Assembly: GCA_902515095.1 (NCBI GenBank)
Contig: CABXTC010000004.1
Location: 62,001-126,000 of the forward strand
From: an uncultured Pelagibacteraceae bacterium
Lineage (GTDB): Bacteria; Pseudomonadota; Alphaproteobacteria; Pelagibacterales; Pelagibacteraceae
DNA: 64,000 nucleotides
Direction: 5' to 3'
Position 1 is the stretch's first letter; each line of letters starts with the position of its first letter. Shown here piece after piece: positions 13,343 through 41,623 of this stretch. Position numbers and translations under genes: made by a program. Under the pieces are notes generated by a model. It had not been told where the DNA came from, searched no databases, and saw only the letters and a program-made list of their open reading frames with translations.

Positions 13343-14122
13343 ATGAATAAAAAAATAAAAAAAATTATCAATAAAAAGAATAAATCCAAAATTATTTGTC
13401 TTACTGCTTATTCAAAAAATGTTGCTGCAATTTTAGATAAACATTGTGATTTAGTATTAGTTGGGGACTCACTAGGATCAGTTCTGTACAACTATAAATC
13501 AACCAAACAAGTAACTTTAGAAACCATGATAAATCATTCTAAAAGTGTAAGACTTGGTATAAAGAATTCATTAATGGTAGTTGATATGCCTTACAACACA
13601 TATCGAAATCCAAATGAAGCTTTAAAGAATTCAAGATTAGTTATGAAAGCAACTAAATGTGATGCTATCAAATTAGAGGGGGGGAAAAAAATAATTCCTA
13701 TAATTAAAAGATTAGTTAAAAATAAGATTCCAGTTATGGGCCATGTTGGAATATTGCCTCAGACAGATAAAAAATTTACATTTAAAGGAAAAAAACTTAT
13801 TGAAAGTCAGAGAATTTTAAGAGACACAAAACTTTTAGAAAATGCTGGCGTTTTTTCCATTGTATTGGAGTGTGTAGAAACTAAGTTATCAAAGAAAATT
13901 TCTAATCATATAAGAATACCAACGATAGGAATCGGTTCTTCAGTTAATTGTGATGGTCAAGTTTTAGTAATTGATGATTTGACTGGTTTAAGTCAAAGTA
14001 AATTAAAATTTGTTAAAAAATTTGTTGATATAACTAAGTTGATTGAAATTGGAGTAAAAAAATTTAAATCTGAAGTATTAAAAAAACAATTCCCAAAAGC
14101 CAAACATTCTTTTTTGAAATGA
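13343..14122 (+). CDS. panB: 3-methyl-2-oxobutanoate hydroxymethyltransferase
   Basis: First step of pantothenate synthesis: 5,10-methylene-THF plus ketoisovalerate gives ketopantoate. The 259-residue TIM-barrel protein shows LTAYSKNVAAILDKH, LVGDSLGSVLYNYKST (metal-binding Asp), VVDMPYNTY, AIKLEGGKK and VMGHVGILPQ, all PanB landmarks. The family's ...PTIGIGSSVNCDGQVLV segment is present, carrying Cys-Asp-Gly-Gln. The last bases overlap the next ATG (ATGA), so it is coupled to the racemase-like gene. Confidence 0.94.
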   Translation: MNKKIKKIINKKNKSKIICLTAYSKNVAAILDKHCDLVLVGDSLGSVLYNYKSTKQVTLETMINHSKSVRLGIKNSLMVVDMPYNTYRNPNEALKNSRLVMKATKCDAIKLEGGKKIIPIIKRLVKNKIPVMGHVGILPQTDKKFTFKGKKLIESQRILRDTKLLENAGVFSIVLECVETKLSKKISNHIRIPTIGIGSSVNCDGQVLVIDDLTGLSQSKLKFVKKFVDITKLIEIGVKKFKSEVLKKQFPKAKHSFLK

Positions 14123-14862
14123 AACTAAATAAAATTGAACCAAAGTTTATTGAAAAACACAACCCAAGAATAGGATTAATTACTCTTGCTAGTGATTTAA
14201 GAATTGAAAAAGATTTTAATAATATAATTTTTGATAAAGATATAGATTTATATTGTAATAGAATTAAGTCCTACAATCCACTAACTAACGAAACATTAAA
14301 AAAAATGGCAGATGATATTCCCAAGGTTACAGAAGATATTCTTCCAGATCAAAAATTAGATTGTGTTGCTTATGCTTGTACTTCAGGGACAATTGCGGCA
14401 GGATATTCATCAATTTATCAAAAGGTGAATTTGGCAAAACCTAACACTAAAGTTACAACACCAATCACCGCGGCAATTAACGCATTAAAATCTTTAAAGA
14501 TAAAAAAATTAACTATATTCACTCCTTATACAGATGAAATAAATCAATCAGTCATAAATTATTTTGAAAAAGAAGATATAGAGCTATCAGAACTTTCTTA
14601 TTTTGATTTAGCTTCAGATTTAGATATTGGTAGAGTCGATCCAGATTACTTGTTTGACGTTCTAACTAAAATAGATTTATCCAATAGTGATGCGTTGTTT
14701 GTTTCTTGTACTTCATTGCCTGTGTTATCAATAATTAAAGAATTAGAAAAAAAAATTAATAAAGTTGTTTTATCAAGTAATCAAACTTTAATTTGGGACA
14801 CTCTTAAACAGATTCAATTTAAAAAAGAAATTAATGGCTATGGAGAATTGTTTAGTAATTAG
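14119..14862 (+). CDS. Asp/Glu racemase-superfamily protein, EutA/maleate isomerase-like
   Basis: This 247-residue protein has the two catalytic cysteines of the aspartate/glutamate racemase and maleate isomerase superfamily: YACTSGTIAAG (Cys near residue 86) and FVSCTSLPVL (Cys near residue 196). The N-terminal RIGLITLASDLRIEKDF matches the arylmalonate decarboxylase/EutA branch. EutA-type genes commonly accompany ectoine utilisation genes, and the next gene here is an ectoine-hydrolase-like enzyme 3 bp away. The reaction could be isomerisation, racemisation or decarboxylation; the substrate is not resolved. Confidence 0.75.
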   Translation: MKLNKIEPKFIEKHNPRIGLITLASDLRIEKDFNNIIFDKDIDLYCNRIKSYNPLTNETLKKMADDIPKVTEDILPDQKLDCVAYACTSGTIAAGYSSIYQKVNLAKPNTKVTTPITAAINALKSLKIKKLTIFTPYTDEINQSVINYFEKEDIELSELSYFDLASDLDIGRVDPDYLFDVLTKIDLSNSDALFVSCTSLPVLSIIKELEKKINKVVLSSNQTLIWDTLKQIQFKKEINGYGELFSN

Positions 14863-14865
14863 ATT

Positions 14866-16035
14866 ATGATTTTTACAAAAGAAGAATTCAAATCAAGATT
14901 AAAAAAAGTACAAGCATCTATGCAAAAAAAAGGTATAGAACTTTTAATTTCACAAGATCCCTCTAATATGAATTATTTAACAGGATATGATGCATGGTCT
15001 TTTTATTATGCTCAGTGTGTAATTGTACATGTCAATTTAGAGGAACCAATATGCTTTCTTAGAGAACAAGATGCTGGTGGGGCTTATATAAAAACTTATC
15101 TAAAGGATGAAAACATAATTAAGTACCATGAAAAATACATTCATACATGGCCACTTCATCCTTATGATGCACTTGTAAATCTTATTAGGGAGAGGAAGTG
15201 GGATAAACTTTCTATAGGACTAGAAATGGATAGCCATTATTTCACGGCTTATTGTTATGAAAAAATTAAACAGGGTTTACCTAACGCGAAAGTCTTAGAT
15301 TGTGAACGATTAGTGAATTGGGTGAGAGTTGTTAAGTCGGATACAGAAATAAAGTTTATGAAAGCAGCTGCTCAAATTACTCAATTAGGTATGAAAAAAG
15401 CATTTGAAGTAATTAATCCAGGTGTAAGACAATGTGATGCCGTTTCAGAAATATGGTCAACCTTGGTAAAAGGAACCCCAGAATTTGGTGGAGATTATGC
15501 ATCAATAGTACCTATGCTGCCAACAGGCAAAGGTACATCCGCTTCCCATTTAACATGGTCAGAAGATAAATTTGTAGAGGGAGAAGCTACAATCATTGAA
15601 TTATCAGGAGTAAATAAAAAATATCACTGTCCAATGGCTAGAACAGTTTTACTAGGTAAACCAGATCAAAAAAAAATTGATACAATGAAGAAAACAAATG
15701 AAGCACTTCAAGCCGGCATTGATTTAGTTAAATCGGGCAACACTGCTGATGATGTCGCGCAAGCTTTTTGGAAAGTATTAGACAAATATGGAATAGAAAA
15801 AACCTCAAGAACTGGATATTCAATTGGTATAGGTTACCCGCCTGACTGGGGAGAGCATACTTTAAATATTTCAAAAGGTGATATGACTATATTACAGCCT
15901 AACGTTACTTTTCATATGATTGCAGTAATGCAATTTGGAAATTGGGGAGTAGAAGCCTCTGAAGCAGTAAGAGTAACAGACAAAGGTTTTGAACTATTTT
16001 GTAATTTTTCTAGAGAACTTCATATTAAAGGCTAG
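14866..16035 (+). CDS. Ectoine-hydrolase-like (DoeA/EutD) M24-fold amidohydrolase
   Basis: A 389-residue creatinase-type 'pita-bread' protein. SQDPSNMNYLTGYDAWSFY, FGGDYASIVPMLPTG, KKYHCPMARTVLLG and GYPPDWGEHTL resemble DoeA/EutD, which opens the ectoine ring to N-acetyl-diaminobutyrate. Where M24 metallopeptidases have metal-binding Asp residues, this protein reads ELSGVNKKYHCPMART, so the metal site is not conserved, as in creatinase and DoeA. It follows the EutA-like gene and precedes potA by 56 bp. DddP (DMSP lyase) is another M24-fold enzyme but fits less well. No DoeB deacetylase is adjacent, so the true substrate may differ. Confidence 0.78.
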   Translation: MIFTKEEFKSRLKKVQASMQKKGIELLISQDPSNMNYLTGYDAWSFYYAQCVIVHVNLEEPICFLREQDAGGAYIKTYLKDENIIKYHEKYIHTWPLHPYDALVNLIRERKWDKLSIGLEMDSHYFTAYCYEKIKQGLPNAKVLDCERLVNWVRVVKSDTEIKFMKAAAQITQLGMKKAFEVINPGVRQCDAVSEIWSTLVKGTPEFGGDYASIVPMLPTGKGTSASHLTWSEDKFVEGEATIIELSGVNKKYHCPMARTVLLGKPDQKKIDTMKKTNEALQAGIDLVKSGNTADDVAQAFWKVLDKYGIEKTSRTGYSIGIGYPPDWGEHTLNISKGDMTILQPNVTFHMIAVMQFGNWGVEASEAVRVTDKGFELFCNFSRELHIKG

Positions 16036-16091
16036 ATATTAGGGGTTGATATTTATTGTTACAAATGTTTTAAATTCATTAAATTATTCCA

Positions 16092-17171
16092 ATGAACAAA
16101 GAATTCGTTAAATTTGATAAAGTTGATAAAAGTTACGATGGTAAAATACTAGTCGTAAAAGATCTCCAATTAGATATCGAAGAAGGTGAATTTGTTACAA
16201 TGTTAGGACCTTCTGGTTCTGGTAAAACTACTTGTTTGATGATGTTGGCAGGATTTGAAACACCAACTCATGGTGAAATTTATTTAGATGGAAGAGCAAT
16301 CTCAAGTATTCCACCTCATAAGAGAGGTATTGGTATGGTATTCCAAAACTACGCTTTATTTCCACACATGACAGTTTATGAAAATTTAGCATTTCCATTA
16401 AGAGTTAGAAAAATTCCAAAAGATGAAGCAGATAAAAAAATTGATAAAGCTTTATCCATGGTATCATTACAAGGTTTTGCAGAGAGAATGCCTGGTCAGT
16501 TGTCTGGTGGACAACAACAAAGAGTGGCAGTTGCGAGATCCTTAGTTTTTGATCCACAATTAGTTTTAATGGATGAGCCATTAGGAGCTTTAGATAAAAA
16601 CTTAAGAGAGAGTATGCAATATGAGATTAAACACATTCATGAAAGTATTGGTGTCACAGTAGTTTACGTTACTCATGACCAAAGTGAAGCTCTTACTATG
16701 TCAAACCGTATAGCAGTATTTAATGACGGAAAAGTTCAACAACTTTCAAGTCCTGATGAATTATACGAGAAGCCAGTAAATTCTTTTGTTGCTGAATTTA
16801 TAGGAGAGAATAATACTTTTGCTGGTGAAGTTTCAGATATTTCTGATGGAAAGTGTAAAGTGAAGTTAGCTAATGCAGAAATATTAGCAAATCCTATTTC
16901 TGTTAAAGGAAAAGGTGAGAAAACAACAGTATCTTTAAGACCTGAGAGAGCTTTAATTAATCCAAGTGATAAAATGGATAATGTTCATAACGGAAAAATT
17001 GAAGAAGTTATTTACCATGGTGACCACACTAGGGTTAGAATTAATTTACTAGGAAACTCTGAATTTATTCTCAAAGTACCAAATAGCTCATCTAATCTTG
17101 ATATTAAATTAGGTAATGAAATCAAGATTGGTTGGAATAGTGAAGATGCTAGGGCATTAGACCCAAAATAA
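16092..17171 (+). CDS. potA: ABC transporter ATPase, PotA-type
   Basis: Energises a spermidine/putrescine-type (PAAT/POPT-like) importer. Walker A GPSGSGKTTCL, Q-loop FQNYALFPHMT, signature LSGGQQQRVAVARSL, Walker B LVLMDEPLGALDK and the switch His in VTHDQSEAL are all intact. A C-terminal TOBE region (about 280-355) follows. At 359 residues it is full length. It is upstream of the binding-protein and permease genes and downstream of the DoeA-like gene in the same direction, so it probably belongs to the same solute-utilisation unit. Confidence 0.93.
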   Translation: MNKEFVKFDKVDKSYDGKILVVKDLQLDIEEGEFVTMLGPSGSGKTTCLMMLAGFETPTHGEIYLDGRAISSIPPHKRGIGMVFQNYALFPHMTVYENLAFPLRVRKIPKDEADKKIDKALSMVSLQGFAERMPGQLSGGQQQRVAVARSLVFDPQLVLMDEPLGALDKNLRESMQYEIKHIHESIGVTVVYVTHDQSEALTMSNRIAVFNDGKVQQLSSPDELYEKPVNSFVAEFIGENNTFAGEVSDISDGKCKVKLANAEILANPISVKGKGEKTTVSLRPERALINPSDKMDNVHNGKIEEVIYHGDHTRVRINLLGNSEFILKVPNSSSNLDIKLGNEIKIGWNSEDARALDPK

Positions 17172-17209
17172 ACAGCAATTACATCTCATATAACTTACAA
17201 AAAGGGCTG

Positions 17210-17238
17210 TTGACTCTCATTATCGATCTTGTTGTAAT
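17210..17238 (+). promoter_or_regulatory. Sigma-70-type promoter for the binding-protein gene
   Basis: TTGACT (17210-17215), a 17-nt spacer and TGTAAT (17233-17238) form a good -35/-10 pair. A GGAGG ribosome-binding site lies just before the ATG at 17274. This gives the binding protein its own strong promoter inside the ABC operon. Confidence 0.65.
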
Positions 17239-17273
17239 CATCTTTTATAAAAAAACGTTTAAACGGAGGAAAA

Positions 17274-18395
17274 ATGAAAACACTTAGTAAATTATTACTA
17301 GCCATTTCTTTTGCTATCTCTGTAACTACGTCAGCATTTGCAGTAACTGCAGTGTCTTGGGGTGGAGCTTACACAGAGTCTCAAAAGTTAGGTTATGGTG
17401 ATCCTACTGGTAAGAAACTTGGTATAACAATTAACTGGGTTGACTATTCAGGTGGATTATCTGAGATCAAGGCACAAAAAGAGGCTGGCAAAATTACGTG
17501 GGATATAATCGACGTATTTGCTATGGATACTATCAATGGATGTGATGAAGGATTATTTGTTGAATTTGATTTTGACAAAGACTTCCCACCAGCACCAGAT
17601 GGAACTCCTGCAAGTAAAGACTTCTTTACTGCAATGCCAAGTAAATGTGCTGTAGGAAATATTTTATATTCTTGGAACTACGCTTATAACAAAAATAATG
17701 TTAAAGGCACTCCAAAGACTATCAAAGATTTCTTTAACACAAAAAAATTCCCTGGAAAAAGAGCTATCTACAAAGGCGCTCTAACAAACTTAGAAATCGC
17801 TTTAGCTGCAGATGGAATTAAACCAGGAAAAGGTGGAGCAAAAATCTACAAAGCTTTAAATACTGAAAAAGGTGTTGATAGAGCTATGAACAAGATCAAA
17901 GAATTATGTACAGATCCAAAAGGTGGATGTGTATTTTGGTCTGCAGGTGCTCAACCACCAGAACTATTAGTTTCAGGTGAAGTTGTAATGGCTACAGGTT
18001 GGAATGGTAGATTCTTCAATGCAGAAGTTGGAGAAGGTGCACCAATCGTACAAGTATGGGATGGACAAGGTCTTGACTACGAGTATTTCGTACAAGTTAA
18101 GGGTGGACCAAACGATGCTAATGGTATGGCTAAGAAAGCTTTAGCTATGATGACTAGTACAGAGATGTTAGCAGGAAGTGCAAAATATATTGCATACGCT
18201 CCTTGGAGAAAATCTTCTATAGCGATTATGGAAGCAGGGGAGCCTTGGTATAAAGATGGTAAAACTAACATGGTACCACAAATGCCAACTGCACCACAAA
18301 ACACTAAAAACTATTTCTTAGTTGACCCAATTTTCTGGGCTGACAACGGAACAGAGCTTGGTGAGAAGTGGGAAGCTATGAAAGCTGGTCTATAA
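17274..18395 (+). CDS. potD: PotD-type periplasmic solute-binding protein
   Basis: This 373-residue protein has a Sec signal peptide ending SAFA-VT near residue 23. A type II periplasmic binding fold follows (VSWGGAYTESQK, TWDIIDVFAMDT, YAYNKNN). It belongs to the polyamine-binding (PotD/PotF-like) family. Cysteines at NGCDEG, PSKCAVG, LCTD and GGCVFW suggest one or two disulfides. The ligand could be a polyamine, but linkage to EutA/DoeA-like enzymes suggests another nitrogenous solute. It has its own promoter, a strong SD and a terminator directly downstream, which should raise its expression over the permeases. Confidence 0.88.
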   Translation: MKTLSKLLLAISFAISVTTSAFAVTAVSWGGAYTESQKLGYGDPTGKKLGITINWVDYSGGLSEIKAQKEAGKITWDIIDVFAMDTINGCDEGLFVEFDFDKDFPPAPDGTPASKDFFTAMPSKCAVGNILYSWNYAYNKNNVKGTPKTIKDFFNTKKFPGKRAIYKGALTNLEIALAADGIKPGKGGAKIYKALNTEKGVDRAMNKIKELCTDPKGGCVFWSAGAQPPELLVSGEVVMATGWNGRFFNAEVGEGAPIVQVWDGQGLDYEYFVQVKGGPNDANGMAKKALAMMTSTEMLAGSAKYIAYAPWRKSSIAIMEAGEPWYKDGKTNMVPQMPTAPQNTKNYFLVDPIFWADNGTELGEKWEAMKAGL

Positions 18396-18432
18396 TTTAA
18401 GTTTTATTAAACTTAATTATATATTATAATTT

Positions 18433-18463
18433 AAGGGCGGTTATTTGATAACCGCCCTTTTTA
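18433..18463 (+). terminator. Intra-operon terminator/attenuator after the binding-protein gene
   Basis: A 12-bp GC-rich perfect stem (AAGGGCGGTTAT / ATAACCGCCCTT) with a 3-nt loop is followed by a T-rich tail. The next start codon (18467) lies only about 3 bp beyond. It should allow abundant binding-protein mRNA and limited read-through into the permease genes. Confidence 0.85.
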
Positions 18464-18466
18464 TTT

Positions 18467-19720
18467 ATGAGCTCAGAAACACAAAAAATTTTAACTACAG
18501 ACGGCATACCTTTAGAAGTAAGTCTTAAGAAATCTGAGAGAAGAAACAAGATAAAAGCTTTTTTACTTGTTGCTCCCCTATTGTTATTTTTAATTATTAC
18601 TTACGTTTTTCCAATTGGTGACATGCTTATGAGAAGTGTTGATGATAAAATGGTAACTGAAATGCTTCCTAAAACATTTAAAGCAATGGAAAAGTGGGAT
18701 GGAAAAGAGTTACCAGAAGAAGAGGTTTTTAAAGCCTTCTATTTAGACTTTAGACAACTGGTTGATGAAAAGCGTGAAGGTAAATTATCAACTCAACTTA
18801 ATTATACAAAAAATGGATTTAAAAGTATTATTAAAAAACTTAGAAGAAAATCAAAAAATTTTGAAGAAGGAAATTACAAAGAACAAATAATGGCAGTCCA
18901 TAAAAGATGGGCTGATGTTGAATATTGGAAAGCAATTAAACGAAGAGCCCCAGCATACACAAGTCAAAAATATCTAAAAGGTATGGATATGTTTAAAAAT
19001 GAAAATGGGGAAATTGTTAGTGTTTCTGAGAATAGAAGAATTCATAGAATTTTATGGCTTAGAACTTTAGAAATTGCATTTTTTGTAACTTTGTTTTGTT
19101 TTTTAATGGCTTACCCAATAGCTCATTTGTTAGCTACTTTACCCATGAAGTATAGTAACTTACTAATGATTTGTGTACTGCTTCCGTTTTGGACATCTCT
19201 TCTTGTAAGAACTGCTAGTTGGATGATTTTGTTACAACAGCAAGGGGTCGTAAATGATTTCTTTGTAGGAATAGGTTTAGTTGCTGACGATGCAAGGCCT
19301 GAGATGATGTACAATAAAACAGGAACATATGTTGCAATGACACAGATTCTGTTACCTTTTATGGTTTTACCACTTTACAGTGTTATGAAAACTATTTCAC
19401 CAAGCTTAATGAGGGCTGGAAAATCATTAGGTGGAACACCAATAGTTGCTTTTTGGAAAGTTTATTTTCCTTTAACAATTCCTGGAATTGGTGCTGGTTG
19501 TTTATTATGCTTTATATTAGCAATTGGTTATTACATTACACCCGCCTTAGTTGGAGGAGCTTCAGGAACATTGATTAGTAACCAAATTGCATTTCACATG
19601 AAAAGTACACTTGATTGGAGTTTTGCATCTGCGATGGGCTTAATGTTGCTTACTGGAGTTTTAGCAATTTACTGGGTTTATAATAAATTAGTTGGAATTG
19701 ACAATATAAAGTTAGGATAA
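18467..19720 (+). CDS. potB: ABC transporter permease, PotB-type, with a large first periplasmic loop
   Basis: Inner-membrane permease half of the PotADBC-type importer. TM1 lies at about residues 30-52. An unusually long hydrophilic loop of about 140 residues (53-195, Lys/Glu-rich) follows, and then the usual membrane segments. The EAA-type loop SLMRAGKSLGGTPIVAFWKV contacts the ATPase. At 417 residues it is about 130 longer than classical PotB. No Shine-Dalgarno is visible, because the ATG sits directly after the attenuator. A gap of 5 bp precedes potC. Confidence 0.87.
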   Translation: MSSETQKILTTDGIPLEVSLKKSERRNKIKAFLLVAPLLLFLIITYVFPIGDMLMRSVDDKMVTEMLPKTFKAMEKWDGKELPEEEVFKAFYLDFRQLVDEKREGKLSTQLNYTKNGFKSIIKKLRRKSKNFEEGNYKEQIMAVHKRWADVEYWKAIKRRAPAYTSQKYLKGMDMFKNENGEIVSVSENRRIHRILWLRTLEIAFFVTLFCFLMAYPIAHLLATLPMKYSNLLMICVLLPFWTSLLVRTASWMILLQQQGVVNDFFVGIGLVADDARPEMMYNKTGTYVAMTQILLPFMVLPLYSVMKTISPSLMRAGKSLGGTPIVAFWKVYFPLTIPGIGAGCLLCFILAIGYYITPALVGGASGTLISNQIAFHMKSTLDWSFASAMGLMLLTGVLAIYWVYNKLVGIDNIKLG

Positions 19721-19725
19721 ATAGA

Positions 19726-20580
19726 ATGGCTTTACCAAAACATACAGAACTACACTATAGAATTTGGCATTATATTTATTTAACAATCTGTGGTCTTGTC
19801 TTCTTTTTCTTAATTGCACCACTGTTTGTAATATTTCCACTATCCTTTAATGCTGAAGAATTTTTAAGTTTTTCAGATGGTATGAAAAGTCTTGATCCAG
19901 ATGCCTTTTCATTAAGATGGTACAAAGACATGATTTATGGAACTAAAAACCCATGGGGTTTAGCTGCTAAAAATAGTTTTATAATTGCTATTTTTGCAAC
20001 AATTGGTTCAGTTCTTTTGGGAACAGTTGCTGCTTTAGGGCTAAGTAGCAGGCATATGCCTTACAAAGGTATAATCATGGCGGTTTTAATATCTCCAATG
20101 ATTGTTCCATTAATTATTTCTGGTGTAGCAATATTTTTCTTTATGGCTAAAGCTGGCTTAGCAGCAACTCATACAGGTATAGTTCTTGCACATATTATTC
20201 TAGGTACACCATTTGTAGTTATTACTGTTACTGCTACTTTATCAGGATTTGATCATAGTGTTACGAGAGCCGCAGCAAGTCTTGGTAGTAATCCAGTTAA
20301 CACTTTTATGAAAATTACTTTACCTTTAATTTTACCTGGTGTGATATCTGGAGGACTTTTTGCTTTTGTAACTTCTTTTGATGAAGTTGTGGTTGTTTTA
20401 TTTTTAGCGGGGTTAGAAAATACAACTATACCAATTCAAATGTGGACAGGTCTAAGAGAACAGTTAAGCCCAACCATTCTTGCTGTTGCAACTTGTCTAA
20501 TTATTTTATCAACATTAATATTAGTAACCGCTGAACTCTTAAGAAGAAGATCTGAGAGACTCAGAGGAATAAATCGATAG
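19726..20580 (+). CDS. potC: ABC transporter permease, PotC-type
   Basis: Second inner-membrane permease (284 residues, about six TM segments: one near 17-40, the rest from about 80 onward). The coupling loop VTRAAASLGSNPVNTFMKITLPL is the EAA motif, and FVTSFDEVVVVLFLAG is characteristic of PotC/PotI. It completes the importer. Its stop lies 13 bp before the acyl-CoA dehydrogenase fusion gene, which is probably co-transcribed. Confidence 0.92.
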   Translation: MALPKHTELHYRIWHYIYLTICGLVFFFLIAPLFVIFPLSFNAEEFLSFSDGMKSLDPDAFSLRWYKDMIYGTKNPWGLAAKNSFIIAIFATIGSVLLGTVAALGLSSRHMPYKGIIMAVLISPMIVPLIISGVAIFFFMAKAGLAATHTGIVLAHIILGTPFVVITVTATLSGFDHSVTRAAASLGSNPVNTFMKITLPLILPGVISGGLFAFVTSFDEVVVVLFLAGLENTTIPIQMWTGLREQLSPTILAVATCLIILSTLILVTAELLRRRSERLRGINR

Positions 20581-20593
20581 TAAAAATCATCCA

Positions 20594-22816
20594 ATGAAGA
20601 TTAAGAATGTAGTGGTGATTGGCTCAGGAACAATGGGAAGCGGTATTGCTGCTCATTTATGTAATGCAAATGTGCCTGTTACCTTACTTGATTTAAAAAC
20701 AGAGATTAGTGAAAAAGCAAGAGAGAAAATTCACAAGTCTAAACCTCCATTGTTAATTGATAAATCTAAAATTAATAATATTAAAGTTGGAAATATTTCC
20801 GACGATTTTGATGTAGTTAAAGATGCTGATTGGATCGTTGAAGCAGTAGTTGAAAGAATTGATATTAAACATCAGATTTATGAAAAGATATTTAAAGCAA
20901 GGAAAGATGGTGCCATTGTTTCTTCCAATACATCATCAATTCCAATTAAAGTTTTATCTGAACATTTAACAGATGCTGAGAAAAAAGATTTTTGTATCAC
21001 ACATTTTTTTAACCCAGTTAGATATATGGGTTTGTTAGAAATAGTAAAGAATGAAAACAATGATCTTGAAAAAATTAACCAGTTAAAGGAATTTTGTGAA
21101 ATTGAATTAGGTAAAGGAGCTATTGTTTGTAATGATACCCCAGGATTTTTAGGAAATAGAGTTGGTGTTTATGCCATGCAAATAGCAATGACTGAAGCTT
21201 TTAAGATGAAACTTTCAGTAGAAGAAGCGGATGCAATTTTTGGAAGACCAATGGGAATTCCAAAAACAGGAGTTTTTGGTTTATACGATTTAATCGGTAT
21301 TGATTTAATGGCTGATGTATTAAAAAGTTTTATCAAAGAATTACCAGAGACCGATGAATTTCACGAAGTTGCAAAAGAAATTCCATTGGTAAAAAAATTA
21401 ATTGAGACCGGCTACACTGGAAGAAAAGGAAAAGGTGGATTTTATAGAATGAACAAAACTGGAGCTATAAAAATTATGGAAGCTATCAATCTGGAGACTG
21501 GCGATTATTCACCCAGTAAAAAGATTGATGTTAAGTCAGATAAAGTAGATCTTAAAGGATTGATCAATAGAAAAGATAAATATGGTGAATATGCTTGGTC
21601 TGTAATTTCAAAAATAATTAAATATGCATCTTCATTAGTTCCAGGAATTACAAAAGAATTTAATGATATTGATGAAGCAATGAGACTTGGATTTAACTGG
21701 GCCAAAGGACCTTTTGAAATGCTTGAAGAAATTGGGGTTAAAAATTTCTTTGATAAAGTTGATGATTTTACAGGAAATAGTTTCTTGGAAAAATTATCTA
21801 AATCTAAGAATGAAAATTTTTATGGTGAAAGACAAAAATATACAAATATTGAAACTTTAGGAAAAGTTAAGAAGACAGCCTCGAGTTCTGATGGAAATGA
21901 TTCTGCTAAAATTTATAGGTTTAATAATTATAATATCGTTGAGTTTACTACTAAAGCTAATGCTTTAGACTATGACTCTATGGATGCTCTTAAAAAAGCA
22001 ACTGATAAACCTTTGATTATAATAAATGAAAGTATGCAATTCTCTGCTGGAGTTAACTTAACTTATACAATGCAGTTTGCTGACAAAAAGGATTTCAAAT
22101 CAATTGAAAAATTTATCAAATATTTTCAAGAAACATGTAAGCATTTGAAATATTCAAAATATCCAGTTGTTTCGGCCCCATCAGGATTAACGTTGGGGGG
22201 TGGTTTTGAAGTAATGGTCCAAAGTAATTTCGTTGCCTCTCACACAAATATTGTCGTTGGATTAGTTGAAACTATTGTTGGTTTAATTCCAGCAGGAGGT
22301 GGATGTAAAGAAATGTTAGCTAGATGGCTTGATACTGATGAGGCAAAAAAAGATCCAAATTATGCACCCTTAAAAGTCTTTGATATAATTGGATACGGTA
22401 AGACAGCCACATCACCTGTTGAAGCAGAACCTCTGAAATACTTAAGACCAAGTGATAAAAAAATAATGAATAGAAATAGTTTATTAGAAGTTTCTAAAAA
22501 AATCCTGAATGAAAATAAAGATTTTAAACCACCTGAAGAACTAGGATTTAAACTACCCGGAAAAGCTGTGCGGGGTGAAATGGATAAAATTTTAGAAAAA
22601 CTTTATAATGATAAAGTGATATTAGATCACGGAGTTGAGGTTGCAAAGGAACTTGCACATGTTTTGAGTGGTGGTGATACTACAATCGATAAAACTTTAT
22701 CTGAAGATGATTTGTTTAAATTAGAGCTTAATGCTTTTATGAAACTGATAGAAACTCAAAAAACACAAGACAGAATAAAACATACTCTCTCAACTGGTAA
22801 GCCTCTAGTTAACTAA
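20594..22816 (+). CDS. 3-hydroxyacyl-CoA dehydrogenase / enoyl-CoA hydratase-like fusion
   Basis: A 740-residue bifunctional-type protein. The N-terminal NAD-binding domain has VVIGSGTMGSGIAAHL (about 6-21) and THFFNPVRYMGLLEIV. The 3HCDH C-terminal domains lie at about 185-410. A crotonase-fold domain at about 440-640 keeps both candidate catalytic glutamates (LGGGFEVMV and GLVETIVGLIPAGGG). The order (dehydrogenase first, hydratase last) is reversed relative to FadB/FadJ. It probably performs beta-oxidation-like steps on short or branched acyl-CoA. The position behind the ABC genes may point to degradation of the imported solute, but this is inference. The 3' end overlaps the convergent cyclophilin gene by 12 bp. 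Confidence 0.85.
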   Translation: MKIKNVVVIGSGTMGSGIAAHLCNANVPVTLLDLKTEISEKAREKIHKSKPPLLIDKSKINNIKVGNISDDFDVVKDADWIVEAVVERIDIKHQIYEKIFKARKDGAIVSSNTSSIPIKVLSEHLTDAEKKDFCITHFFNPVRYMGLLEIVKNENNDLEKINQLKEFCEIELGKGAIVCNDTPGFLGNRVGVYAMQIAMTEAFKMKLSVEEADAIFGRPMGIPKTGVFGLYDLIGIDLMADVLKSFIKELPETDEFHEVAKEIPLVKKLIETGYTGRKGKGGFYRMNKTGAIKIMEAINLETGDYSPSKKIDVKSDKVDLKGLINRKDKYGEYAWSVISKIIKYASSLVPGITKEFNDIDEAMRLGFNWAKGPFEMLEEIGVKNFFDKVDDFTGNSFLEKLSKSKNENFYGERQKYTNIETLGKVKKTASSSDGNDSAKIYRFNNYNIVEFTTKANALDYDSMDALKKATDKPLIIINESMQFSAGVNLTYTMQFADKKDFKSIEKFIKYFQETCKHLKYSKYPVVSAPSGLTLGGGFEVMVQSNFVASHTNIVVGLVETIVGLIPAGGGCKEMLARWLDTDEAKKDPNYAPLKVFDIIGYGKTATSPVEAEPLKYLRPSDKKIMNRNSLLEVSKKILNENKDFKPPEELGFKLPGKAVRGEMDKILEKLYNDKVILDHGVEVAKELAHVLSGGDTTIDKTLSEDDLFKLELNAFMKLIETQKTQDRIKHTLSTGKPLVN

Positions 22817-24224: not shown

Positions 24225-25184
24225 GTGAAAAAAAAAAGAAATAAAGATCCAATCCAACCGGTAAGTGGAACCAAAGTGCCACGGTTTGCTGGCCCCTCAA
24301 CATTTGCAAGATTACCTGAGCTAAGAGATGTGGAGAGTTGCGACGTTGCAATTGTCGGGATTCCATTTGATGCTGGAACCAGTTACAGACCAGGTGCAAG
24401 ATTTGGACCCCAAAGTATTAGACAAGCTTCAAGACACTTAAGAACAAATTACCATCCAAGTTATGATGTTGAACCTTTCAAAGTACAACAGGTAGCTGAT
24501 GCAGGAGATATCACCTGCAACCCATTTAATATTGAAGAGGCAATTAAACAGATAGAGGTGGGAGCTGAGGAATTATTGAATAAAGTTGGGGGAATTATAA
24601 GTCTTGGTGGTGATCATACAATTGCATTTCCATTGTTAAAAGCTGTTAATAAAATTAACAACGGTCCTGTTGCTTTAGTGCATTTTGATGCTCACCTAGA
24701 TACTTGGGATACTTATTTTGGTGCACCTTACACTCACGGTACGCCTTTTAGAAGAGCAAGGGAAGAAAATTTATTTTTAGATGATGCTTCAATGCACGTG
24801 GGTATAAGAGGACCTTTGTACAGTAGAGATGATATCAAAAATGATGAAAGTTTTGGATTTAAGATTATTCATTGTGATGAGTTTCAAACTCAAGGAACTG
24901 ATAAAATTGCTGAAAGAATTAAGAAAAGAGTTGGAAATAACCCTTTATATTTATCTATTGATATAGATGTATTAGATCCTGCTTTTGCCCCTGGAACTGG
25001 CACACCAGAAATTGCTGGAATGACCTCAAGAGAGATGGTTAACACTATAAGAGGTTTATCAGGTTTAAATTTAATTTCGGCTGATGTTGTTGAGGTTTCA
25101 CCAGCATATGATCATGCCGAAGTAACCTCTCTTGCGGCAGCAACAATAGTTTATGAATTAACTAATTTGTTTGCAAAAAAATAA
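24225..25184 (+). CDS. speB: Agmatinase-family ureohydrolase
   Basis: Hydrolyses a guanidino compound to an amine and urea at a binuclear Mn site. All ligand motifs are present: GGDHT (about 126), HFDAHLDTW (about 145-153) and SIDIDVLDPAFAPGTGTPE (about 244 on). At 319 residues it is standard. Agmatine is the default substrate, but guanidinobutyrate and other guanidino acids are used by close relatives. The aldehyde dehydrogenase 20 bp downstream would suit oxidation of an aminoaldehyde from the resulting diamine. The start is GTG. Confidence 0.9.
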   Translation: MKKKRNKDPIQPVSGTKVPRFAGPSTFARLPELRDVESCDVAIVGIPFDAGTSYRPGARFGPQSIRQASRHLRTNYHPSYDVEPFKVQQVADAGDITCNPFNIEEAIKQIEVGAEELLNKVGGIISLGGDHTIAFPLLKAVNKINNGPVALVHFDAHLDTWDTYFGAPYTHGTPFRRAREENLFLDDASMHVGIRGPLYSRDDIKNDESFGFKIIHCDEFQTQGTDKIAERIKKRVGNNPLYLSIDIDVLDPAFAPGTGTPEIAGMTSREMVNTIRGLSGLNLISADVVEVSPAYDHAEVTSLAAATIVYELTNLFAKK

Positions 25185-25204: not shown

Positions 25205-26638
25205 ATGGAAAATAAAAAAAATTTTTATATAAATGGAAAATGGGTAACAGCTATAAGCAAAGAGGAGATTAAAGTAATCAATCCTGCTAACGAAGAAGAA
25301 TGTGCTGTAATATCACTTGGAAACAAAGAAGATGTTGACTTAGCAGTAAATGCTGCAAAAAAAGCTTATAGTTCATGGGCATTTTCACCAAAAGAGGAGA
25401 GAATAAGATTATTAGAAAAACTTTATGAGAATTATAAAAAAAGATGGGCAGATATTGCCAATGCAATTACTGTTGAAATGGGTGCACCAAAAGACTTTGC
25501 TACAAAACTTCAAGCTGGAACAGGTGCAGCTCATTTAAAGTCTTTTATTAAGTATTTAAAAAATTTCGAATTTGAAAAACCATTAGGTGAACATGCTCCA
25601 AACCAAAGACTTATCTATGAACCAAAAGGAGTTTGTGCATTAATAACACCTTGGAATTGGCCAATGAACCAAGTTTGCTTAAAAGTTATGCCTGCAATTG
25701 CTTCTGGATGTACAATGGTTTTAAAACCATCAGAACTTGCGCCATTATCATCAATGATACTTGCTGAATTGATAGATGATACCAAATTTCCTGCAGGAGT
25801 GTTCAATTTAGTTAATGGAGATGGAGCCACAACAGGCGATGCACTAACAAGCCACTCAGATATAAATATGATTTCTTTTACAGGATCAACTAGAGCAGGA
25901 GCTTTAATTTCCCAGAATGCTGCTAAAGATTTTAAAAGGGTAAGTCTAGAATTAGGGGGTAAGGGTGCCAACATCATATTTAAAGATGCTGATCCTGAAG
26001 CAATTGAAAGAGGTGCCTTAAGATGTTTTAGAAATTCAGGTCAATCATGTAATGCTCCTACAAGAATGCTAGTAGAGAAATCTATGTATAGCGATGCAAT
26101 AGAAAGATTGAAAAAATACACAGAAAATTTTGAGGTAGGTGACCCTCAAAAAGAAGGAGAGCATATAGGCCCAGTTATTTCTGAAACTCAATATAATAAA
26201 ATTCAAACTTTAATTAAAAAGGGAATTGATGAAGGTGCTAAATTAGTTGCAGGTGGACCAGGTAAACCACCAGGACTAGACAAAGGCTATTTTGTTAAAC
26301 CTACTGTATTTGCAGATGTAAATAATAATATGGAAGTTGCAAGAACAGAAATTTTTGGACCAGTATTATCGGTAATTCCATTTGAAACTGAAGAAGAAGC
26401 AATTGAAATTGCCAATGACACACCTTATGGGTTAACAAATTATATTCAAACTAAGGACTCAGAAAAGGTAAAAAGAGTTGCGAGAAAGCTGAGATCAGGA
26501 ATGGTTGATGTAAATGGAGCTGGTATTGCTGTTGATGCTCCGTTTGGAGGGTTTAAACATTCAGGAATAGGTAGAGAAGCTGGCGAACATGGCCTTGAGG
26601 AATTTTTGGAAGTAAAATCTGTGGGTGGCTGGAGTTAA
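25205..26638 (+). CDS. NAD(P)-dependent aldehyde dehydrogenase
   Basis: A 477-residue class I/II-type ALDH. WNWPMNQVCLKVMPA, NMISFTGSTRAG, the general-base Glu in SLELGGKGAN (about 249) and the nucleophile Cys in SGQSCNAP (about 283) are intact, and EIFGPVLSV is the late family motif. The aldehyde substrate is not determined. Next to a ureohydrolase it may oxidise 4-aminobutanal or 4-guanidinobutanal, but this is inference. The 3' end overlaps convergent argE by 4 bp. Confidence 0.9.
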   Translation: MENKKNFYINGKWVTAISKEEIKVINPANEEECAVISLGNKEDVDLAVNAAKKAYSSWAFSPKEERIRLLEKLYENYKKRWADIANAITVEMGAPKDFATKLQAGTGAAHLKSFIKYLKNFEFEKPLGEHAPNQRLIYEPKGVCALITPWNWPMNQVCLKVMPAIASGCTMVLKPSELAPLSSMILAELIDDTKFPAGVFNLVNGDGATTGDALTSHSDINMISFTGSTRAGALISQNAAKDFKRVSLELGGKGANIIFKDADPEAIERGALRCFRNSGQSCNAPTRMLVEKSMYSDAIERLKKYTENFEVGDPQKEGEHIGPVISETQYNKIQTLIKKGIDEGAKLVAGGPGKPPGLDKGYFVKPTVFADVNNNMEVARTEIFGPVLSVIPFETEEEAIEIANDTPYGLTNYIQTKDSEKVKRVARKLRSGMVDVNGAGIAVDAPFGGFKHSGIGREAGEHGLEEFLEVKSVGGWS

Positions 26639-27825
26639 TTTAGAAGAGATTGTTTTTTTAAACCATCTAAAAACTTTAAACACTTTTTTAATTCGTTTAG
26701 TTCAATAAATTCATCTACTTTGTGAGCTTGTTCAATTGAGCCTGGACCACATACAACTGTGCTCATGCCAATTTCTTGAAATAATCCTGCCTCTGTTCCA
26801 AAAGACACAACTTCTCTTGAATTATCACCAGTCAGACTTGAGACTAACTCACAAGCCTCAGATTTTTCAACTCGATCGAATCCTGTTACTTCACCTATTA
26901 TTTCTTTTCTAATATTTGATTGAGGAAAAACTTTTTTCATTTCTGGCAAAAGAATATCATTCGCATATTCATCAATTTTTTTATTTAAAAATACACCATC
27001 ATCTTTAACAACTGGTCTTGTTTCCCAATTAATATGACACTTATCAGCTATAACATTATGAGCAATACCCCCAAATATTCCTCCTACTTGTAAAGTCGAA
27101 AAAGGTGGATCAAATATAGAGTCTTTTGGTGCTCTTTTTTTAAGTTCATTTCTTAATTCAATTAATTTAGATGCGTATCTTGCTGCAAACTCCACAGCAC
27201 TTACACCTTTATGTGGAGCAGAGCTATGTCCTGCTAACCCTTCAAAATAAGTTGTATATTCATAACAGCCTTTGTGAGCATCTATGATTTTCATTTTAGT
27301 AGGTTCTCCAATAATACAAATTCCATCTTGTATATTTCTTTTTTGAAGTTCTTTGATTAAAATAGGAGCTCCTAAACATGCTGTTTCCTCATCAAATGTA
27401 AATGAAAAATGGATATCTCTATTTAGATTTATTTTTGCATAAACTGGAGCAAAAGCTAAAGTACATGCTATAAAACCTTTCATGTCACAAGAACCTCTTC
27501 CATAAAGTTTATCATCTTTAATTGTTGCTTTAAAAGGATCAGTACTCCAACTTTTTGAGACAGGAACTGTATCGGTATGACCAGATAAAATTATTGGTTT
27601 AGCACCATTAGATTTTTTTGCTTTAATGGTTGCAAAAAGATTTACTCTTTTTTTGTCATTATCAAATGTTTTAAAAGATGTTGCGCCAAGTTTTTTTAGT
27701 AAATTTTCACAATAATTTATTAATTCGCTATTATCTTCTCCTGAAATAGTCCTAAAACCTATTAGATCTGATAAAATTTTTACAGAATTATTGTACAATT
27801 CTTTTAAATTAATATCTGTACTCAT
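26635..27825 (-). CDS. argE: Acetylornithine deacetylase-like M20 peptidase
   Basis: M20-family zinc amidohydrolase. SGHTDTVPV (first metal His and catalytic Asp), GRGSCDMKGF (bridging Asp), FDEETACLGA (Glu/Glu) and a dimerisation domain with GLAGHSSAPHKG are all present. ArgE removes acetate from N-acetylornithine in arginine synthesis, and relatives act on succinyl-diaminopimelate or other N-acyl amino acids. The track starts at a TTG (27831), but the ATG two codons later gives MSTDINLKEL and is preferred. Only about 30 bp separate it from divergent csaA. Confidence 0.85.
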   Translation of the reverse strand: MSTDINLKELYNNSVKILSDLIGFRTISGEDNSELINYCENLLKKLGATSFKTFDNDKKRVNLFATIKAKKSNGAKPIILSGHTDTVPVSKSWSTDPFKATIKDDKLYGRGSCDMKGFIACTLAFAPVYAKINLNRDIHFSFTFDEETACLGAPILIKELQKRNIQDGICIIGEPTKMKIIDAHKGCYEYTTYFEGLAGHSSAPHKGVSAVEFAARYASKLIELRNELKKRAPKDSIFDPPFSTLQVGGIFGGIAHNVIADKCHINWETRPVVKDDGVFLNKKIDEYANDILLPEMKKVFPQSNIRKEIIGEVTGFDRVEKSEACELVSSLTGDNSREVVSFGTEAGLFQEIGMSTVVCGPGSIEQAHKVDEFIELNELKKCLKFLDGLKKQSLLN

Positions 27826-27854
27826 AACCAATAATTAATATAAATACTGCATTA

Positions 27855-36738: not shown

Positions 36739-37872
36739 TTATTTTCTACCTTTAGATAACAGCTGTTTGTAAAATTTAACATCTGCATTTCCTTCGCATC
36801 CAATGACAAGAATATTGGAATCTTCCTTCAAATCTAATAATTTTCTCGCTTTGAGATTGTTAGCTAAACCTATAAGAGCAATTACCCCTGGCGTTGCACA
36901 TTCACTTCCTGTTATTGAAACTTTGCTCAATTTTTTATCTTTTAGCATCGCTGTCATTTTGGCAACATTATTGTCAGTAACAGATACACAATAGTCAGAA
37001 GTTTTCTTTAAAATTTGCCATGGTACAAATGACATTTCATTACATGACATTCCGCCCATGATACTCTCTTTTTTTATTCTTATTTTTTTTAGTTTATTTG
37101 TTTTTATACTCTGAAGTACACAATCAGCTCTGTCAGGTTCAACAACAATTATTTTTGGAATTTTTTTAAAATATTTTGCTACCCCAGCAACCACACCTGC
37201 TGCTAATCCTCCAACACCAGCTTGAACAAATATGTGTGTTATGTAATGATTTGTTTGTTTGGATATTTCTTTTATTATAATGGAGTATCCAGCCATCGTA
37301 AGTTGGGGAATATACTTGTAGTTTTTGGTAGAGACGTCCTGAACAATTTGCCAATTGTTCTTTTTTGAAAGTCTTTTGCATTCTTCTAATGAATTTTCAT
37401 AATTTCCTTTAACTCTTATTACCTCAGCACCAAATTTCTCTATTTCACGAACTCTTGTTTGGCTTACATATTGACTTACAAAAATTTTACACTTTAAGTT
37501 TAATCTTTTTGCCCCCCAGGCAACAGACCTACCATGGTTACCGGCTGTAGCTGATGAAATAACGATATTTTTTTTTCCTTTAGATATTCTCTCTACAGCG
37601 TATGCTCCTCCTAAAGCTTTAAAAGACTTTAAGTGAAATCTCTTAGATTCATCTTTATAAAATATATTGTTAAATTTTAAATTTTTCTTCAATTTATCAA
37701 GTGATAAAAGAGGAGTTACCTTATAATTTTTCCAACTAGATATTGATTTATAGGCATTAGTAATAAATGCAGATGGAAGATGTTTTAAAACATAATTTCT
37801 TTTAAAATTATAATGATTATTTTTTAATAATTTTTGATATTTCCAATTTTTAAGATTTTTTAAGCTTTTCAC
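36739..37872 (-). CDS. PLP-dependent ammonia-lyase, diaminopropionate ammonia-lyase/threonine-dehydratase-like
   Basis: Fold-type II PLP enzyme (377 residues). FHLKSFKALGGAYAV carries the PLP lysine, SSATAGNHGRSVAWGAKRLN is the Asn loop as in YgeX/DpaL, and FVQAGVGGLAAGV is the phosphate-binding glycine loop. The SFKxLGG and AGNHGRSVAW pattern favours DpaL-like over biosynthetic IlvA. It probably eliminates ammonia from a diamino or hydroxy amino acid. It starts at GTG one base after gmaS, so it is part of the amine-nitrogen operon; its link to methylamine use is unknown. Confidence 0.75.
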   Translation of the reverse strand: MKSLKNLKNWKYQKLLKNNHYNFKRNYVLKHLPSAFITNAYKSISSWKNYKVTPLLSLDKLKKNLKFNNIFYKDESKRFHLKSFKALGGAYAVERISKGKKNIVISSATAGNHGRSVAWGAKRLNLKCKIFVSQYVSQTRVREIEKFGAEVIRVKGNYENSLEECKRLSKKNNWQIVQDVSTKNYKYIPQLTMAGYSIIIKEISKQTNHYITHIFVQAGVGGLAAGVVAGVAKYFKKIPKIIVVEPDRADCVLQSIKTNKLKKIRIKKESIMGGMSCNEMSFVPWQILKKTSDYCVSVTDNNVAKMTAMLKDKKLSKVSITGSECATPGVIALIGLANNLKARKLLDLKEDSNILVIGCEGNADVKFYKQLLSKGRK

Positions 37873-37873
37873 T

Positions 37874-39199
37874 TTAACAATCTAGAGTATTTTGTCTTTC
37901 CCATTTGGTTATAGGTTTCGACTTATCAAATTTCTCTACATTATCAAATTCTTTAATTTCTGTACCTCTAAGCTTTATATAGCTATCGATTACATTAGCA
38001 CCAAAAGCCTCATTCATTTCTTTATTTTGTTTTAATTTTTTTAATGATTGATTTAACTCATCAGGAAGTTTTGGAAGATCTGGATATTTTGCAAAGTCTT
38101 TGTACATATTACAATGAAGAGGTTTACCAGGATCAATCTTATTTTTAATACCATTTATTCCAGCCGCGAGAACACTTGCTTGAAGCAGATAAGGATTAGC
38201 AGATCCATCCATTAATCTTAATTCAAATCTTCCTGGATCAGGAATTCTTATCATATGTGTTCTATTATTACCGGTGTAAGATATACTACTTGGTGACCAC
38301 GATGCTCCTGATTTTGTTGGAGGCGCATTAATTCTCCTGTAACTATTAATTGTTGGATTAAAAAATGCAGATAGAGATGAAGCATGTTTTATAACTCCAC
38401 CCAAAAAATTATATGCTATTTTACTTAGACCTAATTCATTAGATTTATCTAAAAATTTATTTTTCTTTCCATCCCAAACAGAAATATGGGCATGACAACC
38501 GTTTCCAGTTAAATTTTCAAATGGTTTAGGCATAAATGTTGCTCTTAAACCGTGTTTTTCAGCAATGGTTTTTACCATGTATTTAAAAAATGTATGCCTA
38601 TCTGCGGTCTTTAAACAATCTGAGTAATCCCAATTCATTTCAAATTGGCCATTAGCATCTTCATGATCATTTTGATAAGGACCCCATCCCATTTCGATCA
38701 TACAATCGCAAATTTCTTTAATTAAGTCATATCTTCTCATTAAAGCTGATTGATCATAGCAAGGTTTTGATTGGGTATCCCTTGGATCTGCAATTGAATT
38801 TCCATCAGGAGATATTAAGAAATATTCACATTCTACTCCAGATTTCATGACAAGACCTTGTTTTGAGAGTCTTTTTATTTGTTTTTTTAACATTACTCTT
38901 GGTGAGGCATCTACTGGTTTTCCATTCATCCAAAGATCTGAGGCAAGCCAACCCACTTCTTTATTCCAAGGTAACTGAATTAAACTATCTGGATCTGGAA
39001 TTCCAAACATGTCTGAATCTGCAGGAGTCATATCCAACCAAGCAGCAAATCCTGCAAACCCTGCACCATTTTCTTGCATTTCTTTAATTGCGTGAACGGG
39101 TACTAATTTTGATCTAAGAACTCCAAATAAATCGACAAAACTTATTAAAAAATATTCAATTTTTTTTTCTTTAGCAATTCTGAACAAATTTTTTGGCAC
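37874..39199 (-). CDS. gmaS: Gamma-glutamylmethylamide synthetase (type III glutamine-synthetase family)
   Basis: Ligates methylamine to glutamate with ATP. The 441-residue protein looks like GlnT/GmaS: YFLISFVDLFGVLRSKLVP, GAGFAGFAAWLDMTPADSD, GVECEYFLIS (metal Glu), YQNDHEDANGQFEMNW, GNGCHAHISVWD and PGRFELRLMDGSANPYL. Glutamine synthetase activity cannot be excluded. Neighbouring mgsABC, tmm and tdm genes support GmaS. It starts at GTG 17 bp after a small membrane-protein gene. Confidence 0.8.
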   Translation of the reverse strand: MPKNLFRIAKEKKIEYFLISFVDLFGVLRSKLVPVHAIKEMQENGAGFAGFAAWLDMTPADSDMFGIPDPDSLIQLPWNKEVGWLASDLWMNGKPVDASPRVMLKKQIKRLSKQGLVMKSGVECEYFLISPDGNSIADPRDTQSKPCYDQSALMRRYDLIKEICDCMIEMGWGPYQNDHEDANGQFEMNWDYSDCLKTADRHTFFKYMVKTIAEKHGLRATFMPKPFENLTGNGCHAHISVWDGKKNKFLDKSNELGLSKIAYNFLGGVIKHASSLSAFFNPTINSYRRINAPPTKSGASWSPSSISYTGNNRTHMIRIPDPGRFELRLMDGSANPYLLQASVLAAGINGIKNKIDPGKPLHCNMYKDFAKYPDLPKLPDELNQSLKKLKQNKEMNEAFGANVIDSYIKLRGTEIKEFDNVEKFDKSKPITKWERQNTLDC

Positions 39200-39216
39200 A
39201 AATTAAGTTATCATAG

Positions 39217-39375
39217 TTATTTGAAAAAAGAAAAAATAGTTTCTTTATATATAATTAAATTTACACAAATAATTATTATAACTGCTAGAATTACACCATA
39301 TTTTGCTTTAGGAAAAACAACACCACGCATTTTGGTTGGTCTTAATTCTTCGTTATTATTATCTTTTTCAGGCAT
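39217..39375 (-). CDS. 52-residue single-pass membrane protein, not in the ORF track
   Basis: The minus strand from ATG at 39375 to TAA at 39217 encodes 52 residues. A charged N-terminus (MPEKDNNNEELRPTKMRG) precedes one strong hydrophobic helix, AKYGVILAVIIIICVNLIIY (residues 24-43), and a short FSFFK tail. It lies 17 bp upstream of gmaS and just beyond the terminator of the amt transcript, in the same direction. The composition and position between two expressed genes make it credible. No family is recognised. It could be a partner of the adjacent ammonium transporter or amine enzymes. Confidence 0.65.
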   Translation of the reverse strand: MPEKDNNNEELRPTKMRGVVFPKAKYGVILAVIIIICVNLIIYKETIFSFFK

Positions 39376-39390
39376 TATTAGTTAAGAAAT

Positions 39391-39420
39391 AAAAATGGGC
39401 ACCGTTTATCACAGTGCCCA
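39391..39420 (-). terminator. Rho-independent terminator after the amt transcript
   Basis: On the minus strand a 7-bp GC-rich stem (TGGGCAC / GTGCCCA) with an 11-nt loop is followed by TTTTTATTTC. It lies 16 bp after the 76-residue protein's stop, closing the amt operon before the 52-residue gene and gmaS. Confidence 0.75.
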
Positions 39421-39435
39421 AATTTTTAGTTTAGA

Positions 39436-39666
39436 TTACCAATCGGTAATATTGCTTTTATGATCATTGGCTCCATGTCTTTTTCTTGCTAATCTATCAA
39501 GTTCATCACTTTCAGATTTAGCTGTTAAAACATGCCAACCAACCCATAAAATAATAGCAAGTATAACAAGTATACCTTCACTAGATCCAGCACCAGGATA
39601 AACAGCACCAACAACTTCTTCAGCTGGTTTGTTTAGGTGATCAATCCAATTTGTAACTGTCGCCAT
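39436..39666 (-). CDS. 76-residue single-TM protein downstream of the ammonium transporter
   Basis: MATVTNWIDHLNKPAEE is a short amphipathic N-terminus. GILVILAIILWVGWHVL (about 31-47) is one TM helix, and a charged C-terminus (KSESDELDRLARKRHG) follows. A strong SD (AAGGAG) precedes the ATG, and the gene sits 11 bp after amt. No family is recognised. Co-transcription with amt suggests an accessory or regulatory subunit; no GlnK/PII gene is seen nearby. Confidence 0.75.
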   Translation of the reverse strand: MATVTNWIDHLNKPAEEVVGAVYPGAGSSEGILVILAIILWVGWHVLTAKSESDELDRLARKRHGANDHKSNITDW

Positions 39667-39677
39667 ATATTACTCCT

Positions 39678-41078: not shown

Positions 41079-41204
41079 ATTCTCTCTCCATATTAGTTTT
41101 TCAAAAGCTTATGAAATTACGGTTGGTGTGACAAATGAAACAATTTTCTAAAATATAGAAATAGCAACAAGTTTATAAAAAATAATCAACCTTAGATTGT
41201 GATG

Positions 41205-41615: not shown

Positions 41616-41623
41616 AATTTAAT

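Follow-up and report, generated by a model that had tools for sequence, protein, structure and literature searches.

Import of ectoine-type solutes and their degradation are encoded together in ehuABCD-eutABCDE of Sinorhizobium meliloti and in uehABC-eutABCDE of Ruegeria pomeroyi, in both of which an importer is coupled to EutA and EutD. In a methanotroph, a DoeB that is just 22% identical to Halomonas DoeB acts after DoeA in vivo (PMC7192451). The PotD protein of SAR11 is reported to rank among the transport proteins found in greatest abundance in surface seawater and was read as a sign of polyamine uptake, a role of SAR11 potABCD that was proposed from whole-cell uptake (PMC8437039). According to PMC13310141, which cites Clifton et al. 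2024, SAR11_1336 of HTCC1062 imports dimethylsulfoniopropionate (DMSP) and also betaines. Here we describe a seven-gene run (EutA-like, DoeA-like, PotA, PotD, PotB, PotC, FadN-like fusion) in a 64,000-nucleotide stretch of DNA from an uncultured Pelagibacteraceae bacterium; the whole stretch is referred to as the window. The genes form a genuine and conserved operon that carries a wrong annotation. From its sequence we read it as encoding an importer of zwitterionic osmolytes, coupled to a ring hydrolase of the ectoine type that likely acts on ectoine or a close relative, and give this reading a probability of about 0.5.

Results

Gene order is conserved in the Pelagibacteraceae

The window belongs to contig C4 in a genome of 1.07 Mb (an incomplete assembly, 92.6%), and the named relatives of its genus are Pelagibacteraceae (SAR11). 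Between positions 14119 and 22816 the seven genes form one uninterrupted run on the plus strand (Table 1). The initial annotation had proposed a solute-utilisation unit, in which an enzyme pair runs without interruption into an ABC importer and then an acyl-CoA fusion, and all seven open reading frames (ORFs) and their families were indeed found. EutA directly follows panB with an overlap of 4 nucleotides (nt), and the coordinates give spacers of 3 nt (EutA-DoeA), 56 nt (DoeA-PotA), 102 nt (PotA-PotD), 71 nt (PotD-PotB), 5 nt (PotB-PotC) and 13 nt (PotC-FadN).

Conservation of the gene order was surveyed by tblastn in 110 distinct DoeA loci within the family Pelagibacteraceae. EutA was located immediately 5' of DoeA in 100 of 103 loci, and 3' of DoeA followed PotA (94/94), PotD (85/85), PotB (81/81) and PotC (78/79). 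The order is conserved in this family far beyond chance. FadN was present 3' of PotC in 68 of 72 loci, a looser linkage, so that the expected conservation holds almost without exception for EutA-DoeA-PotADBC and less tightly for FadN. EutA was missing from three loci (L113, L117 and L128), and FadN from four, namely that of HTCC7211 (L031), L032, L036 and L066, the last of which had no PotC match either. Genomes G011 and G013 are taken here to be HTCC1062 and HTCC7211, respectively. DoeA, PotD and the M20 gene described below were jointly absent from three genomes of sister genera (G001, G007 and G009), all of them single-contig and at least 99% complete.

The DoeA-like protein shares its fold and catalytic core with ectoine hydrolase

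The DoeA-like protein matched the Halomonas elongata ectoine hydrolase 6twk over its full length (E 9e-106). Its predicted structure (mean predicted local distance difference test score, pLDDT, of 80) had H. elongata EutD (6twk/6yo9) as best PDB matches, with a template modelling (TM) score of 0.86-0.87 and 42% identity. Among 31 aligned sequences from canonical, SAR11 and other clades, 44 positions were invariant, including Tyr52, His238, Glu255, Tyr263, His264, Tyr329, Trp339, Glu341 and His361 (6twk numbering). Glu255, which we take to be the carrier of the covalent intermediate in EutD, corresponds to the likewise invariant Glu245 of the window protein. With the core residues kept, the earlier assignment as an ectoine-hydrolase-like enzyme was borne out. 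Alignment and structural model suggest that the protein probably works like an ectoine hydrolase, while membership of that family is not claimed.

The upstream EutA-like protein carries the cysteine pair that had been proposed for it: C87 and C197, the two catalytic cysteines of the superfamily, were invariant in ten homologues. Its nearest solved structures are maleate isomerases, and its score against TIGR02990 (185 bits) is below the cut-off of 318, as is that of EutA from the eutABCD-type cluster at L154 (220).

The importer is related to GABA- and opine-binding systems

In a phmmer search with the window PotD the 8jv1 protein ranked first (E 1e-181), followed by gamma-aminobutyric acid (GABA) and opine binders, and no spermidine-bound PotD was among the matches. 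The Foldseek title of 8jv1 reads 'Structure of the SAR11 PotD in complex with GABA'; its sequence, as printed in the alignment, is 100% identical to PotD of the same operon in HTCC7211, and three more PDB entries (8jv2-8jv4) carry it. Structural ranking likewise placed GABA and opine binders nearest, with spermidine PotDs only from place 35. SAR11_1336 is the apparent orthologue of this PotD, as judged from genome position and annotation. Others solved the orthologous PotD with GABA, and DMSP and betaines are reported for it too, so that specificity of the importer for ectoine is improbable.

In the potD-potB gap a terminator-like hairpin was present in all 14 sequences examined (the window and 13 relatives). 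The stem sequence is unrelated in distant relatives, although the hairpin is kept. This suggests that it is probably an attenuator by which PotD is overproduced relative to the permeases.

At about a dozen loci (e.g. L111:11170-14706) another binding protein, with about 43% identity to 8jv1, takes the place of PotD, whereas EutA, DoeA and FadN are retained. L111 further has two small ORFs between DoeA and PotA.

An ArgE-like M20 protein is a candidate deacylase

The initial annotation had noted that DoeB and the rest of ectoine degradation are not adjacent, and the EutE-type DoeB proved to be absent from the whole genome. An ArgE-like M20 gene located about 4 kb beyond the run was present in 11 of 11 DoeA-positive Pelagibacteraceae genomes checked. 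HTCC1062, HTCC7211 and other relatives possess ArgJ and so do not need ArgE to make arginine; no ArgJ turned up in the genome of the window, the assembly of which is incomplete (92.6%). In an otherwise canonical ectoine cluster (L156, genome G451) an ArgE-like M20 protein, 45% identical to that of the window, occupies the eutE slot. These findings point to the M20 protein as the best candidate deacylase.

Genomic neighbourhood

Table 1. Features of the seven-gene run and its downstream neighbourhood (window positions)
Feature	Coordinates	Strand	Evidence
EutA-like two-cysteine racemase/isomerase (Asp/Glu racemase superfamily)	14119..14862	+	PF17645, TIGR02990 185 bits
DoeA/EutD-like M24 hydrolase, M24 + Creatinase_N	14866..16035	+	TIGR02993 468 bits; full-length 6twk match
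PotA-type ATPase	16092..17171	+	TIGR01187 above cut-off
PotD-type periplasmic binding protein	17274..18395	+	SBP_bac_8; orthologue of PDB 8jv1
Terminator-like hairpin with T tail, PotD/PotB gap	18433..18459	+	12-bp stem
PotB-type permease	18467..19720	+	PotB/PotC-like family match; gene order
PotC-type permease	19726..20580	+	PotB/PotC-like family match; gene order
FadN-like 3-hydroxyacyl-CoA dehydrogenase / enoyl-CoA hydratase fusion	20594..22816	+	PF02737, PF00725, PF00378
Agmatinase-type ureohydrolase (SpeB)	24225..25184	+	TIGR01230, PRK02190 above cut-offs
Aldehyde dehydrogenase	25205..26638	+	family match
ArgE-like M20 deacylase, candidate EutE/DoeB stand-in	26635..27831	-	PRK07522, TIGR01892 above cut-offs

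The neighbourhood extends past the run, with the SpeB, aldehyde dehydrogenase and M20 genes 1.4-5 kb downstream as frequent companions. The fusion protein has the FadN-type layout (3HCDH N-terminal, crotonase C-terminal) and scores 504 against NF052272, below the cut-off of 999. About 20 kb from the operon (window 36739-44828) lie genes for a pyridoxal-phosphate (PLP) lyase, a glutamine-synthetase-type protein, an ammonium transporter and three glutamate-synthase-like proteins, which resemble the N-methylglutamate (methylamine) pathway. HTCC1062 has the PLP lyase at a similar distance from the operon.

On the EutA side, L131 (15324-19346) and 31 of 79 relatives carry a divergent cassette back to back with EutA, which is absent from the window. 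It encodes a luciferase-like monooxygenase, an AA_synth protein, a PcaD-like alpha/beta hydrolase and an aldehyde dehydrogenase, and may serve the degradation of an N-heterocycle; the literature searched gave no support for homarine or trigonelline as its substrate in SAR11. The luciferase-type cassette of one genome contains a thiamine-diphosphate enzyme that most resembles sulfoacetaldehyde acetyltransferase (L048:2069-3766). At two other loci EutA adjoins a betaine-type island (L031:11177-16898 and L111:1632-9166) with genes for a ProX-type binding protein, a permease, a gamma-butyrobetaine-dioxygenase-like and a hydroxyisobutyrate-dehydrogenase-like protein.

Contexts in other lineages

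Separation of the EutA/DoeA pair from the importer in most relatives would have spoken against the proposed unit. The pair stays with the importer in the Pelagibacteraceae, whereas in the genomes compared from a second Pelagibacterales family a distance of about 26-46 kb separates DoeA from PotADBC. DoeA of this second family (f2) comes after an M20 amidohydrolase that has DoeB2 among its matches, and the further neighbours of DoeA are, depending on the genus, EutA, a GbcA-like Rieske oxygenase, an aldehyde dehydrogenase or a diaminopropionate-lyase-like PLP enzyme. PotADBC of f2 adjoins dipeptidase, DUF3726, Ldh_2 dehydrogenase, aldehyde dehydrogenase and glutamine-synthetase-type genes. In genus g9 an amidinotransferase-like gene precedes DoeA. 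Two such proteins (L038:6788-7894 and L168:14283-15386) are 66% identical to each other and match no Pfam model; at L038 the gene stops 5 bases before the DoeA start.

PotADBC was also found near ectoine genes in two unrelated alphaproteobacteria. In G356, a 25-kb stretch contains EutA-EutB-EutC, M20 and sarcosine-oxidase-like genes, DoeA and PotADBC. PotADBC of G363 is flanked on one side by an EutA/M24/PLP-lyase cluster and on the other by a full eutBCDE-asnC-ssd-atf cluster; EutB, EutC and EutD of the latter pass their family cut-offs. Plasmid searches gave mostly rhizobial matches, at only 46-48% for DoeA and 38-42% for PotD.

Discussion

From gene content, order and homology we infer the following route, including its substrate, the M20 step and the role of EutA. 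The operon would allow SAR11 to scavenge osmolytes in the sea. PotADBC would import small zwitterions of the GABA, betaine and DMSP type and presumably of the ectoine type, with PotD made in excess of the permeases, probably by means of the potD-potB hairpin. In the cytoplasm, the DoeA-like M24 enzyme would open the ring of a cyclic amidine, ectoine or a near relative being the most likely one, without a metal and, as the homology to EutD suggests, via a covalent glutamate intermediate at Glu245. EutA, which some strains lack, would probably edit the stereochemical configuration of a hydroxylated or enantiomeric form. The nearby ArgE-like M20 protein would then carry out the deacylation, with generic aminotransferase and aldehyde-dehydrogenase steps as the last ones. 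More tentatively, PotADBC could represent a third type of ectoine-class importer after EhuABCD and TRAP/BCCT, feeding a distinct metal-independent clade of ring hydrolases with an ArgE-type deacylase in place of EutE. If so, the most abundant bacteria of the ocean would consume ectoine-like solutes by a shortened pathway. Should the operon partner of the importer open ectoine-type rings, estimates of nitrogen-compound consumption by SAR11 would need revision, and an annotation that has been copied widely would be set right.

Several observations weigh against coupling to an ectoine-type hydrolase. The DoeA-like protein scores 468.4 against TIGR02993, below the cut-off of 613, with canonical controls reaching 702-738, and the tree places SAR11 and G356 outside the H. 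elongata/eutE-linked clade (support 100/99 vs 100/100). SAR11 has a different fixed residue at twelve positions. Four of these lie in the strand that follows the invariant pocket residue His361, where the canonical PGLW is changed to AVMQ and WSFYVHQ to WSFYYAQ. Neither EutE nor DoeB2 (M20 type) was found in the genome of the window, HTCC1062 or HTCC7211; a lone match in HTCC1062 (E=2e-4) in the search for the missing deacetylases carries no weight. The aminotransferases of class III are distant, with only about 31% identity to Atf, and the M20 gene is retained in two of four DoeA-negative Pelagibacter genomes, so that its link to DoeA is not exclusive. FadN has no place in ectoine breakdown, and attempts to position it in the pathway were fruitless. 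Finally, the orthologue ligands documented in the PDB and in PMC13310141 are GABA, DMSP and betaines, without ectoine.

A less probable alternative is that a broad GABA/betaine/DMSP importer is combined with a DoeA-like enzyme acting on another cyclic or guanidino-type compound, e.g. a methylated betaine-related amidine or a creatinine-like molecule. The separate clade with its fixed pocket-strand changes fits this idea, as do the ligands of the orthologous PotDs (PDB 8jv1; PMC13310141) and the lineage-variable neighbours, namely GbcA-type Rieske oxygenase, sarcosine-oxidase-like and amidinotransferase-like (L038) genes, and methylamine-type genes near PotADBC of f2. However, the core catalytic residues fully match those of ectoine hydrolase, and EutA, EutB, EutC and M20 partners recur beside this DoeA clade in G356 and partly in f2.

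That the locus encodes ordinary polyamine uptake, as PMC8437039 assumes for SAR11 potABCD, next to unrelated enzymes is improbable. PotA scores above its polyamine cut-off, SAR11 takes up polyamines with potABCD as the proposed route (PMC8437039), and SpeB and aldehyde dehydrogenase genes follow downstream, but the GABA complex 8jv1 and the position of spermidine-bound forms, far below the GABA/opine binders and not among the phmmer matches, led us to reject polyamine import as the principal function. The suspicion that a polyamine annotation misleads was thus well founded. It is very improbable that the locus is a standard Ehu/Eut operon for the complete degradation of ectoine/hydroxyectoine: EutA and EutD homologues do occur together with an ABC importer, but this importer is not EhuABCD, the run contains no EutB, EutC, EutE, AsnC or EnuR, and the absence of EutE and DoeB2 from the genome led to rejection. 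Least credible is a DddP-type DMSP lyase that receives its substrate from a DMSP-binding importer while FadN processes acryloyl-CoA products; DddP does count among the M24 relatives and SAR11_1336 is reported to import DMSP (PMC13310141), but the DddP model scores 31.5 bits versus 468 for ectoine hydrolase and DddP structures rank 44th or lower at 12-13% identity, on which grounds it was rejected.

Coupling of a zwitterion importer to an ectoine-type hydrolase thus remains our preferred reading, and it places the locus beside several known systems. With H. elongata DoeA/EutD (6twj/6twk/6yo9; TIGR02993) the window enzyme has in common the fold, the Glu255 equivalent, the 44 invariant residues and an EutA partner; it differs in its sub-cut-off score, its own clade and altered pocket strand, the lack of an EutE partner and the type of importer. 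Compared with the Sinorhizobium and Ruegeria operons, PotADBC replaces Ehu or TRAP, and EutB, EutC, EutE, the regulators and the transaminase are lacking. In doeBDAC of halotolerant methanotrophs (PMC7192451) DoeA is likewise paired with a deacetylase unlike Halomonas DoeB; that cluster is without importer or EutA but includes a transaminase and a dehydrogenase. Among the nearest characterised relatives of the window PotD outside SAR11 are the GABA-binding protein Atu4243 and the iGABASnFR parent, with 27-34% identity and with GABA binding in a different genome context. Closest of all is the SAR11 PotD (8jv1-8jv4)/SAR11_1336, a direct orthologue with about 77% identity that belongs to the same transporter in the same gene order.

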